Positions 4,020 to 62,766 of a stretch of DNA of 64,000 nucleotides are shown here, piece by piece. The notes beneath the pieces were generated by a model. It was not told the DNA's origin. It did no database searches and saw nothing but the letters and a program-made list of their open reading frames with translations. The translations under genes and the position numbers were made by a program. Numbering within the stretch: position 1 is the first letter of the stretch; the number at the start of each line of letters is the position of its first letter. This DNA is from Rhyzopertha dominica (taxonomy: Eukaryota; Arthropoda; Insecta; Coleoptera; Bostrichidae). The stretch spans positions 25,044,286 through 25,108,285 of the forward strand of contig QCXZ01000064.1 of NCBI GenBank assembly GCA_025024175.1, in the 5' to 3' direction.

Positions 4020-5425
4020 CTCACAACATGGAACTTATTGAGTTTGAGAAGGGCGCAGCTTTTGAGATCTAGATATCACTGGTTCTTCATGACCAGTCCT
4101 TTTGGCGTCGTACTCTCCTATGATGACGATAAGCACATGTATATCCCAGGAAGAACCGCCCAAGTCATCAGGAGTACTTTGTGGCGCAACCAACAAGTGT
4201 TCGCTGAACAGGACAAATCGTTGGGAAGAACAGACTTAGTTCAACACAGGATCAACACCGGAGATGCACAACTTATTCGACAGGCACTCAGAAGGCTAGC
4301 TTCAGCAAGACAAAAACAAGTGTAGAAAATGGTAAAGGACATGAAGAAACAAGGCATAATTGAAGAATCAAATAGTCCATGGCCCTTACCGTTAGTGCTA
4401 GTCACAAAAAAANATGGATCGCTTCGATTCTGTGTTGACTATTGCCAGCTAAATGACTACAAAGAAGGACAGCTATCAATTTCCAAAAATTGACCACTCT
4501 TTCTGGATCTACATGGCTTTCGACAATGGATTTGAATAGTAGATACTGGCAAGTGGGAATACATCCACAGGACAATGAGTAAACCGCGTTTACCACCAGT
4601 TGCGGTTTATATCAGTTCACTGTAATGCCATTCGGCCTGTGCAACACTCCGGCTACGTTTGAACGGTTAATGGAGCTGGTGTTACGTGGACTGACCTGAA
4701 AAACCTGCCTAGTCTACCTGGATGATGTCATGGTCATGGGACGCACTTTCTAAGATCACCAGCGAATATGAATCTGAATCCAAAAGAAGTGTGCACTTTT
4801 TCAGAAGAAAATGGAATTTTTTGAACCCACGAGCATACTGGTTCTAGACCAGCGAGGATAAGAGATTGGCCACGTCTTCACGATAAACACGAATTAAGGA
4901 GCTTCCTGATAATCTATACTTACTATAGGAGATTTGTGCAAGAATTCGCAAAAGTCCATAAGGTCCATAAGGAAGCTTTTAGGAAATTGAAGTCAGCGTT
5001 ATACAGTAGCCCGATCTTGGCATACTCCCGACGCCATGGAAAATTCATTTTGGATACGAATGCAACTAATGTCGACATCGGAGCTGTACTGTCGCAGATG
5101 CAGGAGACGAAGAAAAAGGGACAGAGTATTACAGCAAAGTTTTAAATAAACTTGGGAGAAACTACTGCGTCACGAGGAAACAACTGCTGGCCATAGTAAA
5201 GTCCATACACCATTTCCACAAGTACCCATATGGACGAGAATCCCTCATAAGGACTGACCATGCTGCATTATCCTGGCTTTGACGACTAAAGAATCCAGAG
5301 TGTCAAGTTCAGATGGATGGAGAGACTGCAGTAGTACGATTTCAAGATACAGCACCTCCCAGGAAAACGTAACAACCCTGACGCTTTATCTAGAAGACCG
5401 TGGGAAGAATGCAAACAAGGCAGGG
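4020..5425 (+). pseudogene. Ty3/gypsy retrotransposon pol relic (RT and RNase H)
   Basis: The reading switches frame and hits stops many times, but the order of conserved blocks is clear. About 4196-4330 gives LGRTDLVQHRINTGDA, the segment just before the reverse transcriptase. About 4320-4460 gives KDMKKQGIIEESNSPW and FCVDY (fingers). About 4620-4690 gives the [11 protein letters not shown] block. At 4714-4728 YLDDV, the catalytic palm motif, is intact. About 5050-5105 gives the start of RNase H (DTNATN...GAVLSQ). About 5124-5280 gives YYSKVLNKLGRNYC, TRKQLLAIVKSIHHF and RTDHAALSWL. Gag and protease are not seen upstream, so the copy is 5'-truncated. It is not capable of making Pol. Confidence 0.85.
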
Positions 5426-5427
5426 GA

Positions 5428-5736
5428 GTGAACGAGCGCGAGGGCACGGTTGATGTAAGGGCAGTCACCATCGAGGAAGGCGAGGAGCAGGCAGCCGAGA
5501 ACGTCAGGAAGGTTCAGCAAAAGGACAGCGATATTGGTCCTCTAAGAAGACAACGGACCACGACCTGGATGGGAGGCGTTGTGGTCCCAGTGCTAGTGGA
5601 GAACGGCCTGTTGAAGAGAGCGTGGGATAGCGCCGATGGGAAGCAAGTCGTAATGCAGTTAGTAATACCCAAGGAGTACGTACTATGGGTGTTAGAAGAG
5701 GACGATTCTATTGGGTATATCATCGAAAGGATGTAG
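5428..5736 (+). pseudogene. Ty3/gypsy pol remnant: linker and start of integrase zinc-binding region
   Basis: A 102-codon open stretch continues the same pol. It has the acidic linker after RNase H, the QQKDSDIGPL block and the GLLKRAW...DGK...QLVIPKEYV block that precedes the integrase HHCC zinc finger. The zinc finger and catalytic DDE core are missing. The sequence jumps at about 5748-5790 to a motif like the pol C-terminus (KVVHLNSL). A large internal deletion has therefore removed the integrase core. The ATG at 5428 is not a real start, because the frame belongs to the polyprotein. Confidence 0.75.
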
Positions 5737-8862: not shown

Positions 8863-9064
8863 TAGATCCATAGATTAAAATGTATGTCTATGCTATGCTG
8901 TCTACACCTCAACCAACTGCAGATAGTACTATTTCGCTGTCATTACAGGTCACTTCCTTTAGGAAGTAGATCCCATTAAGGCATCTAGGTGGCTTTGTCA
9001 TCATGTCAGTTGTAATGCTGACAGATGGCATTGCCATTCTAATTTCTTACTTAGATCCATAGAT
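8863..9064 (-). mobile_element. Hammerhead-retroelement copy with 13-bp target duplication
   Basis: The direct repeat tagatccatagat at 8863-8875 and 9052-9064 encloses 8876-9051. On the minus strand the insert begins AGTAAGAAATT, carries the family body, then the 3' part of the hammerhead, and ends with a tail like GCATAGACATACATTTT. Compared with the copy at 23.7 kb it has lost about 56 bases between two CTGTA repeats. This deletion removes helix I, the CTGATGA box and part of stem II, so the ribozyme is dead (remaining part 8925-8947). The perfect target duplication shows it moved as a retroelement. Confidence 0.75.
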
Positions 9065-11311: not shown

Positions 11312-11395
11312 TTGGTTGGCAAGTCGGTACCATCCGTCTGATGAGCTGAACAATCAGCGAAACTCAAGGGCCGCGGGGTCCGGCTTGTCAACCAA
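11312..11395 (+). ncRNA. Candidate hammerhead ribozyme, long helix I and looped helix III
   Basis: The core boxes are exact: CTGATGA at 11338-11344 and GAAA at 11359-11362. Stem II between them is perfect, with GCTGA (11345-11349) pairing TCAGC (11354-11358) around an ACAA loop. Helix III can form from 11362-11365 with 11376-11379 (one G-U) around a GC-rich 10-nt loop, which places the cleavage-site GTC at 11378-11380. An outer helix I of 12 pairs forms between 11312-11323 and 11384-11395 (one G-U), and inner pairs 11334-11336 with 11381-11383 lead to the core. The weak point is T11337, which must be bulged because it does not pair with C11381. The sequence is unrelated to the 23.7 kb family. 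It may be slightly decayed. Confidence 0.55.
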
Positions 11396-23727: not shown

Positions 23728-23986
23728 AATATGACTTTTTGAAAGTAAGAATTTGGGATGGCAATGTTATCTGTCAGCATTACACTGACATGATGACAAA
23801 GCCACCTAGCTGCCTTAACGGGTACTACTTCCTAAAGGAAGTGACCTGTAGCCTGACAAATTGGCATGCAACTGCATACTTCACTAAACTGCACTGATGA
23901 GCTGTAATGACAGCGAAATAGTACTATCTGCAGTTGGTTGAGGTGTAGACAGCACAGCATAGACATGCATTTTAATATGACATTTT
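23728..23986 (+). mobile_element. Hammerhead-retroelement copy, least damaged, with ~13-bp target duplication
   Basis: The insert 23741-23973 is flanked by AATATGACTTTTT (23728-23740) and AATATGACATTTT (23974-23986), a 13-bp duplication with one mismatch. It starts like the 8.9 kb copy (AGTAAGAATTT), carries the family body with the internal palindrome CTTCCTAAAGGAAG, then a complete hammerhead (23887-23935), and ends GCATAGACATGCATTTT. The 62-codon open frame across it is shared with other copies only because the DNA is shared, and I do not regard it as a gene. Relative to the 333-bp monomers at 57 kb, the body is inverted with respect to the ribozyme. Confidence 0.75.
23887..23935 (+). ncRNA. 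Type I hammerhead ribozyme, complete
   Basis: Every element of a hammerhead is present in 49 nt. Helix I: AACTGCA (23887-23893) with TGCAGTT (23929-23935), 7 perfect pairs. Core box CTGATGA (23894-23900). Stem II: GCTGT (23901-23905) with ACAGC (23910-23914), loop AATG. Core GAAA (23915-23918). Helix III: ATAG (23918-23921) with CTAT (23924-23927), loop TA. The cleavage site is ATC, with cleavage predicted after C23928. Helix III plus its loop is a 10-nt perfect palindrome, so the monomer hairpin is strained and a dimeric (double) hammerhead is likely the better fold. Other copies support it by covariation. Activity is inferred, not shown. Confidence 0.8.
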
Positions 23987-56988: not shown

Positions 56989-57036
56989 TACCTTTATTAA
57001 AATGCATGTCTATGCTGTGCTGTCTACACCGCAACC

Positions 57037-57085
57037 AACTGCAGATAGATCTATTTCGCTATCATTATAGCTCACCAGTGCAGTT
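57037..57085 (-). ncRNA. Hammerhead ribozyme copy with core mutation
   Basis: Helix I (TGCAGTT/AACTGCA), stem II (GCTAT/ATAGC, loop AATG), GAAA and palindromic helix III (ATAGATCTAT) are all intact, but the first core box reads CTGGTGA instead of CTGATGA. The changed A is invariant in active hammerheads, so this copy should not cleave. Confidence 0.7.
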
Positions 57086-57369
57086 TAGGTCTAATGCAGA
57101 CAGNACGGCATAGAACTGGTTTTGCCCATATACCAAAGGCTTGGTATGATGTAAGTAATAATTTATATGGCAATGCCATCTGTCAGCATTACACTGACAT
57201 GATGACAAAGCCACCTAGCTGCCATAACGGGTACTACTTCCTAAAGGAAGTGACATGTAGCCTGACAAAAATACTTCAATTTGACAGGCCCCCACGGCAC
57301 TTTTTGCTAGCGGGCAAGAACCGACAAACATTAAAATGCATGTCTATATGTGCTGTCTGAACCGCAGCC

Positions 57370-57418
57370 ATCTACAGATAGATCTATTTCGCTATCATTA
57401 TAGCTCATCGGTGCAGTT
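57370..57418 (-). ncRNA. Hammerhead ribozyme copy with core mutation
   Basis: Stem II (GCTAT/ATAGC), GAAA and helix III (ATAGATCTAT) are intact. The first core box reads CCGATGA, with the invariant U changed, and helix I has mismatches (AACTGCA against TGTAGAT). Predicted inactive. Confidence 0.65.
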
Positions 57419-57626
57419 TAGGTCTAGCGCAGATAGCACGGCATAAAGTATGCAGCTGCATACCAATTTGTCAGGCTACAAGTCACTTCCTTTAGGAAGT
57501 AGTACCCGTTATGGCATCTAGGTGGCTTTGTCATCATGTCAGTGTAATGCCAACAGATGGCTTTGTCATCTAAATTCTTACTTACATCATACCAAGTTAT
57601 ATGCCGTGCTGTCTGCACTAGACCTA

Positions 57627-57675
57627 AACTGCACTGATGAGCTATAATAATAGCGAAATAGATTTATCTGCAGTT
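57627..57675 (+). ncRNA. Hammerhead ribozyme copy, core intact
   Basis: Helix I AACTGCA/TGCAGTT (57627-57633, 57669-57675) and CTGATGA (57634-57640) are intact. Stem II is GCTAT (57641-57645) with ATAGC (57650-57654), loop AATA. GAAA is at 57655-57658. Helix III is ATAG (57658-57661) with TTAT (57664-57667), one G-U pair. Cleavage is predicted after C57668. Compared with the 23.9 kb copy both sides of stem II changed together (G-C to A-T pair), which supports a selected RNA structure. Confidence 0.78.
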
Positions 57676-57927
57676 GGTTGCGGTGCACACAACACAGCAT
57701 AGACATGCATTTTATTATATGTAGGTTCTTGCCCGCTAGCAAAAAGTGCCGTGGGAGCCTACTGTCAAATTGAAGTATGCAGTTGCATACCAATTAATTT
57801 GTAAGGCTACAGGTCACTTCCTTTAGGAAGTAGTACCAGTTATGGCAGCTAGGTGGCTTAGTCATCATGTCCGTGTAATGCTGACAGATGGCATTGCCAT
57901 CTAAATTCTTACTTATACCTTTATTAA

Positions 57928-62347: not shown

Positions 62348-62766
62348 GCGAGAATTACAGTGTGGATGACACCATGCCATCTAGTGGCAATACGGCATCA
62401 TCCACTCGTCTCTGTGGAGAACTAATCTGAACGGCAGCCCACTATGTTGTGGGCGTTTAAAAGGCGGCAGACATTCTTAAACGACGATTTCTGCAACGAA
62501 TCCAGTTTTCAAGCATAATAATTACGTCGATGCCATGTTGCCCGCGTCAAAACAATCTGTGGATAGCTGTTTCGGCTTATAAAGTCTCCTCAGCACAGCT
62601 ATGGCCCCAATAACAATGCTTGAGAACTGTATTCTTTGCAGAAATCATCGTTGAGGAACGCCTACAATATAGTGGGCTGCCGTTTAGATTAGTGCCCCAT
62701 AGAGACGAGTGGATGATTCCGTATTGCCACTAGATGGCATGGTGTCATCCACACTGCAATTCTCGC
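62348..62766. mobile_element. 419-bp MITE with ~110-bp terminal inverted repeats
   Basis: The left arm 62348-62458 and right arm 62654-62766 are inverted copies at roughly 90% identity by eye (both start GCGAGAATT and share CACCATGCCATCTAGTGGCA). The loop holds a smaller hairpin (ATAGCTGT/ACAGCTAT, about 62560-62605). No coding. No clear target duplication, so the superfamily is undecided. It lies just downstream of the hAT transposase relic and may have inserted into it. Confidence 0.8.

Follow-up and report, generated by a model that had tools for sequence, protein, structure and literature searches.

A type I hammerhead motif in a short repeated element

The locus raises two questions: what kind of element carries the hammerhead ribozyme motif found at positions 23887–23935, and how copies of that element come to be inserted. 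Positions refer to the window, that is, the whole 64-kb stretch of Rhyzopertha dominica DNA that was analysed. The motif reads AACTGCA CTGATGA GCTGT AATG ACAGC GAA ATAGTACTAT C TGCAGTT, with cleavage predicted after C23928:

23887–23935, + strand: type I hammerhead motif (inner helix I of 7 bp, core, stem II of 5 bp, helix III)

The full type I descriptor matched the window twice (23894 and 57634, both + strand) and was absent from 300 first-order Markov sequences of window length scanned on both strands; a looser CTGATGA..CGAAA pattern was found four times, against 0.15 expected in shuffles. The motif is not a chance occurrence, and the type I hammerhead proposed in the earlier note is real. 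That note had given helix III four pairs in cis; we count three, because four would leave a 2-nt loop, so that the actual arrangement is 3 bp capped by a GTAC loop (tetraloop GUAC) in cis or, between two RNAs, a 10-nt self-complementary stretch. The 3-bp helix III with its palindromic tetraloop suggests dimeric ribozyme action, which makes dimeric cleavage probable. In 100 cores (those from loci L003–L103 that match one fixed expression), 56 loops read GTAC, 38 read GATC and 6 have some other sequence; two palindromic forms with few intermediates are as expected for a helix III formed between two ribozymes.

Stem II shows one compensatory change across four window copies, a pattern uninformative by itself (217/500 shuffles were equally good) and too weak to serve as stand-alone evidence. 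The variable stem II pair in the 100 cores is G-C in 86, A-T in 10, G-T in 3 and A-C in 1, although 60 of the loci had been pre-selected by a pattern permitting exactly those four pairs. Helix I extends outward by up to 18 further pairs in fuller copies; the window copy lacks most of the 5′ strand of this outer helix. The minimum free energy fold of the 49-mer differs from the hammerhead (−13.2 vs −9.5 kcal/mol for the hammerhead, in a model that leaves out tertiary contacts). Fold z-scores were weak for the 49-mer (−1.8), the 57340–57445 hammerhead (−1.0) and the stretch 57323–57588 (−1.3), and stronger for 57600–57701 (−5.5) and the whole window copy at 23740–23976 (−4.8).

The earlier note had proposed a search with Rfam models as a check, and the outcome was divided. 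No Rfam family, hammerhead or other, reached its gathering threshold in the whole 64-kb window; the region searched alone gave a weak match to Hammerhead_HH9 (26.6 bits, E value 2.5e-4, gathering threshold 52), and the best HH9 score among locally scanned copies was 31.4 of 52 bits. Four window copies were used to train a covariance model, which recovered those four, a fifth (8908–8962) and one weak new place (62548–62603, 23 bits); owing to this training it is not independent evidence. The new place (− strand, E value 1e-4) is hammerhead-like and by eye lies inside a longer inverted repeat, possibly representing a second hammerhead family. A further hammerhead-like motif at 11319–11394 (+ strand) has a long outer stem and an irregular cleavage side (HH9 24.7 bits, E value 4e-4; fold z −4.6), and showed no BLAST relation to the retrozyme within the window.

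Copies in the window and the 352-nt unit

BLAST of the window against itself uncovered further copies. The layout of each was clearest against a 352-nt unit found in plain tandems at 351–352-nt spacing (loci L020, L024 and L027); we took the L020 unit as reference, numbered from the cleavage site (nt 1 = TGCAGTTGG). Sites 1 and 2 in the list are the two start sites described in the next section.

23740–23883, − strand: first piece of the window copy, unit nt 246 to 103, antisense, putative cDNA start at site 2 (BLAST to the L020 unit)
23884–23976, + strand: second piece of the window copy, unit nt 308 to 352 and 1 to 48, sense, putative cDNA start at site 1 (BLAST to the L020 unit, 100 %)
23728–23740, unstranded: left target duplication AATATGACTTTTT
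23974–23986, unstranded: right target duplication AATATGACATTTT, 12/13 identical to the left
8869–9052, − strand: second copy, layout like the window copy, hammerhead without the 5′ part of the core
8863–8875 and 9052–9064, unstranded: target duplication pair of the 8869–9052 copy, 13/13 identical
56996–57445, − strand: composite insertion, site-1 piece of ~1.3 units, hammerhead cores altered at 57030–57088 and 57363–57421
57446–57917, + strand: composite insertion, site-2 piece of ~1.3 units, intact hammerhead core at 57634
56989–57000 and 57916–57927, unstranded: target duplication pair of the composite, 12/12 identical
2309–2375, + strand: old fragment of the front part, without hammerhead

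The window copy (~236 bp, 23740–23976) is not a complete element; it is a rearranged insertion of two oppositely oriented pieces of the tandem unit, with the hammerhead in the second. Two proposals of the earlier note held: target duplications flank the copy (12/13 nt identical), and there is no protein, the longest frame of the unit being 67 aa (four unit lengths, both strands). The 23740–23976 and 8869–9052 copies share a front-plus-hammerhead layout with 13-nt duplications, and the 56996–57917 insertion is a composite with a 12-nt duplication. A simple element leaves unexplained that the front part can point either way with respect to the hammerhead. A simple SINE with defined ends was rejected, the outer ends being two distinct places within a single 352-nt unit that were copied in opposite directions. 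ARAGORN found no tRNA in the window that might mark a tRNA-derived SINE head (degenerate heads would escape it), and no LTR was seen in the insertion layouts. Elsewhere in the window, 4825–5733 (+ strand) carries broken frames of a gypsy-like LTR retrotransposon (RT_RNaseH_2 match). A gypsy-like ORF had a single match, to an unnamed entry.

The assembly searched (479 Mb, 138 contigs, window included) contains 3495 exact matches to the hammerhead core pattern (1777 + 1718), with none for the reversed control. A 201-nt query, for which 40 of 693 candidates were scored, returned at least 43 matches. The unit has a GC content of 43.2 % and, folded as a circle, the L020 unit has a predicted z of −10.3 vs 100 shuffles. 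Unit, ends, junctions, duplications and copy number are all read directly from the assembly.

A possible internal promoter, a TATATAAG box, lies at unit nt 264 of L020, directly upstream of outer helix I. One array (G000:C1:17892859-17894343) holds five units, three minus then two plus, at 351-nt spacing, equivalent to a two-start layout with several laps per side. As for relatives in viruses or prokaryotes, a longer hammerhead pattern had no match in genome_contigs and a front-part pattern none in viral_contigs; an 18-mer was found in two viral contigs, within an unrelated stretch that is coding by eye, and these were rejected as viral relatives.

Start ends cluster at two sites of the unit

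Taking contig C1 in core-list order, we mapped both outer ends of its first 60 loci, a sample chosen irrespective of layout in which every locus has an exact core. An end at which the 3′ side of the unit faces outward was called a start. Of the 120 ends, 97 are starts: 51 at nt 40–60 (site 1, ~48), 38 at nt 236–262 (site 2, ~245) and 8 elsewhere. Hence 89/97 start ends in 60 consecutive loci fall at two sites whose windows make up 13.6 % of the unit, with the caveat that these windows were set after inspecting the end list and that BLAST ends are accurate to a few bases only.

Two starts are present at 37 loci, of which 33 combine site 1 with site 2, three combine site 1 with another place and one uses site 2 twice. 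In 34 loci both ends fall in the site windows; independent draws from 51:38 would make roughly half of these mixed, and the observed number is 33. In these 33 loci the ends face outward around a variable junction, with site-1 pieces of 87–1001 nt and site-2 pieces of 33–629 nt; across all two-start loci, the length between ends varies from 167 to 1193 nt. Target duplications of at least 9 nt flank 27/37 two-start loci, 21 of them 12–14 nt long, compared with 3/148 when flanks were taken from different loci. The remaining 23/60 loci have one start (15 at site 1, 3 at site 2, 5 elsewhere), and a duplication was obtained for just 3/23; such loci may have lost an end, been wrongly delimited or inserted in another way. 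In our reading of the two-start pattern, both strands of the target prime reverse transcription, and they do so at two fixed RNA sites.

At four loci (L050, L064, L073 and L101), the sense piece ends at site 2 and not at site 1. L101 is a single 345-nt lap running from just past site 2 round to site 2, as expected from a circle primed at site 2.

A template that probably continues across the cleavage site

Among the 33 site-2 pieces of the mixed loci, 6 extend past the cleavage site and none has its end within 5 nt of that position; for site-1 pieces, crossing follows from the choice of loci with an exact core. Free of core selection, the cleavage site lies within 2252 exact 30-nt matches, vs 2521 exact 25-nt matches to nt 10–34, a comparison between different stretches of different lengths. 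Run-off at a cut RNA end seems rare on these counts, and the template would therefore be a circle or an uncut multimer.

Minor alleles are shared in 246/565 comparisons within an insertion vs 13898/104510 between insertions, and 11/66 within-insertion pairs are among the closest 5 %. Sharing is uneven, being clearest in L098, whose laps differ by only 0.4–0.6 %, and slight in L024 and L027. This suggests one RNA per insertion, although a shared subfamily would explain part of the allele sharing.

Penelope-like elements of the same genome

A genome search for GIY-YIG sequences returned at least 144 matches (150 of 2080 candidates scored), many in close inverted pairs. Locus L127 contains a frame of 864 aa, parts of which exceed the Pfam cut-offs for RVT_1 and GIY-YIG; the whole protein gave no Pfam match at 0.01. 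Its 95 protein relatives are mostly unnamed, the named ones including ladybird, weevil, fly, mosquito and one Hydra, and no meaningful match to a solved structure was obtained. Scanning 24 GIY-YIG loci (L104–L127) for end sequences gave two outer ends in 9, one in 7 and none in 8. All nine two-ended copies have one short end, the other carrying a tail ~41 nt longer. Of the target duplications, computed for four of the nine, three are exact (14, 12 and 11 nt) and the fourth, of 12 nt, contains a single mismatch. Ahead of the Penelope-like element (PLE) ends in L124–L127 lies a hairpin, GACC..GGTCGAAACGTC, by eye like a degenerate hammerhead. Sequence kinship between retrozyme and PLE was considered and rejected: 19 of 20 GIY-YIG loci gave no match or an E value of at least 0.16, and the remaining one, L123, holds a retrozyme piece belonging to a nearby copy.

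According to the available text of the sources, an optional tail on one inverted end is a known PLE feature (PMC3846280), and a PLE protein has been shown to cleave both strands and extend them, starting at internal RNA sites; that same study reported no start-site difference between strands, which counts against a PLE link (PMC11167929). The available text of PMC7229834 names PLEs only as a strong candidate mobiliser of animal retrozymes, on the grounds of shared hammerheads, tandem copies and co-existence. Because the PLEs of this genome follow the same paired-end rule (9/9), we regard the enzyme of a same-genome GIY-YIG PLE as the best candidate for, and most likely to be, the mobiliser of the retrozyme. 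A more specific version, which we offer tentatively and to which we give rather less than even weight, is that PLE enzymes would prime both target strands on one circular retrozyme RNA at two fixed sites, one per strand, and that the PLE 'tail on one end' would be the same rule as site 1 and site 2.

Mode of insertion and alternative explanations

Taken as a whole, we think it probable that the element is a non-autonomous 352-nt animal retrozyme inserted from two RNA sites on both cut strands, most likely by a PLE enzyme. The course of events, with its cleavage, circularity and PLE link, is what we infer from the copies. Transcripts containing several 352-nt units, each bearing a single type I hammerhead, would be cleaved by the ribozyme, which probably acts as a dimer, and the resulting units ligated to circles; these two steps are carried over from the published family. 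RNA continuous across the cleavage site, whether circle or uncut multimer, would then serve as template at the target, where each of the cut strands would prime reverse transcription, one at site 1 (nt ~48) and its partner at site 2 (~245). These cDNAs, of ~0.1 to 2.8 units, would join at a variable junction, so that the insertion has a fixed end facing outward on either side, pieces in inverted arrangement and a target duplication, mostly of 12–14 nt. Against this explanation stand the 23/60 one-start loci with duplications in 3/23, the post-hoc site windows, the lack of significant sequence shared with the PLE loci beyond the one nearby copy, the absence of a start-site difference between strands in the PLE study (PMC11167929), the non-hammerhead minimum free energy fold of the 49-mer and the uneven allele sharing with its subfamily confound.

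One alternative is an ordinary LINE as mobiliser, with site 1 as the target-primed start and the inverted part produced by L1-style twin priming. A LINE would also account for the fixed 3′ end, for one-start loci being truncated on the 5′ side and for duplications of ~13 nt. L1 twin priming is a source of inverted insertions, its starts lying at scattered places. The second start here, however, is as fixed as the first (38/97 start ends at nt 236–262), and the paired-end rule is present in PLEs of the genome; we think a LINE unlikely. A foldback or TIR DNA transposon incidentally carrying a hammerhead would likewise give fixed, inverted outer ends between target duplications, but here the ends come from different places of one unit, and what lies between them varies (167 to 1193 nt) and extends through tandem laps, which makes such a transposon highly improbable.

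A different doubt concerns the ribozyme, which might be irrelevant to mobility if the templates were read-through transcripts or multimers left uncut, without any use of circles. Templates crossing the cleavage site would be given by uncut RNA too, and in vitro a PLE remains able to insert when its ribozyme is mutated, according to the available text of PMC11167929. Yet the core is conserved in 3495 copies, the stem II pairs are retained in 99/100 cores and the two palindromic loop forms account for 94/100, with the L098 laps 0.4–0.6 % apart; a recent common origin explains part of this. An irrelevant ribozyme thus strikes us as doubtful, while keeping appreciable weight beside the favoured two-site insertion of a self-cleaving retrozyme RNA.

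Relationship to known systems

The earlier note had suggested an undescribed system; however, animal non-LTR retrozymes have already been published (PMC7229834), and the element appears to be a new family of this known kind. Its other suggestion, a short non-coding retrozyme-like element, agrees with the published features examined (352-nt tandems, no protein, duplications). In the available text, metazoan non-LTR retrozymes are characterised by a hammerhead, a tandem unit and no protein (Cervera and de la Pena, PMC7229834; also PMC7761336, PMC11722881, PMC8490949), and more precisely by a unit of 170–400 nt, GC below 45–50 %, duplications >4 bp, no LTR, primer binding site or polypurine tract, a highly self-paired RNA circle, and self-cleavage with both linear and circular RNA present in tissue (PMC7229834). 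The present family resembles those described there in its type I hammerhead, tandem 352-nt unit, low GC (43.2 %), lack of protein, duplications >4 bp (27/37 two-start and 3/23 one-start loci) and strongly self-paired RNA, here a predicted circle with z −10.3. It differs in a sequence that appears family-specific and in its inverted two-start insertions, which were not found described in the available text of PMC7229834.

With PLEs carrying inverted pLTRs and a tail on one end, as presented in the available text of PMC3846280 and PMC11167929, the retrozyme shares two outward ends, one per start site, and short target duplications. Unlike PLEs, it has no RT or GIY-YIG endonuclease frame (a PLE frame is present in L127), its start sites are 155–197 nt apart on the unit vs ~41, and its duplications are mostly 12–14 nt vs the 8–10 bp given for rotifer in those sources. 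Amphibian retrozymes and newt satellite 2 (available text of PMC7229834) are similar in a weak helix III with a palindromic tetraloop cap, favouring dimeric action, but have one or two helix III pairs vs three here; the present host is an insect, as the PLE relatives also suggest. SMalpha SINE-like elements of Schistosoma (available text of PMC8490949) are likewise short mobile elements with a type I hammerhead, a likeness by description.

We recognised no prior description of two-site, two-strand retrozyme insertion in the literature searched, outside which lay most subscription journals; as far as these searches show, this layout and its match with the local PLE are new. Since the hammerhead cores number in the thousands and lie in copies whose ends can be read, the questions of mobiliser and template become approachable by sequence. 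If true, the PLE reading would name the mobiliser of animal retrozymes and supply a sequence test for it. A PLE and a retrozyme in one genome also form a natural pair for biochemistry.
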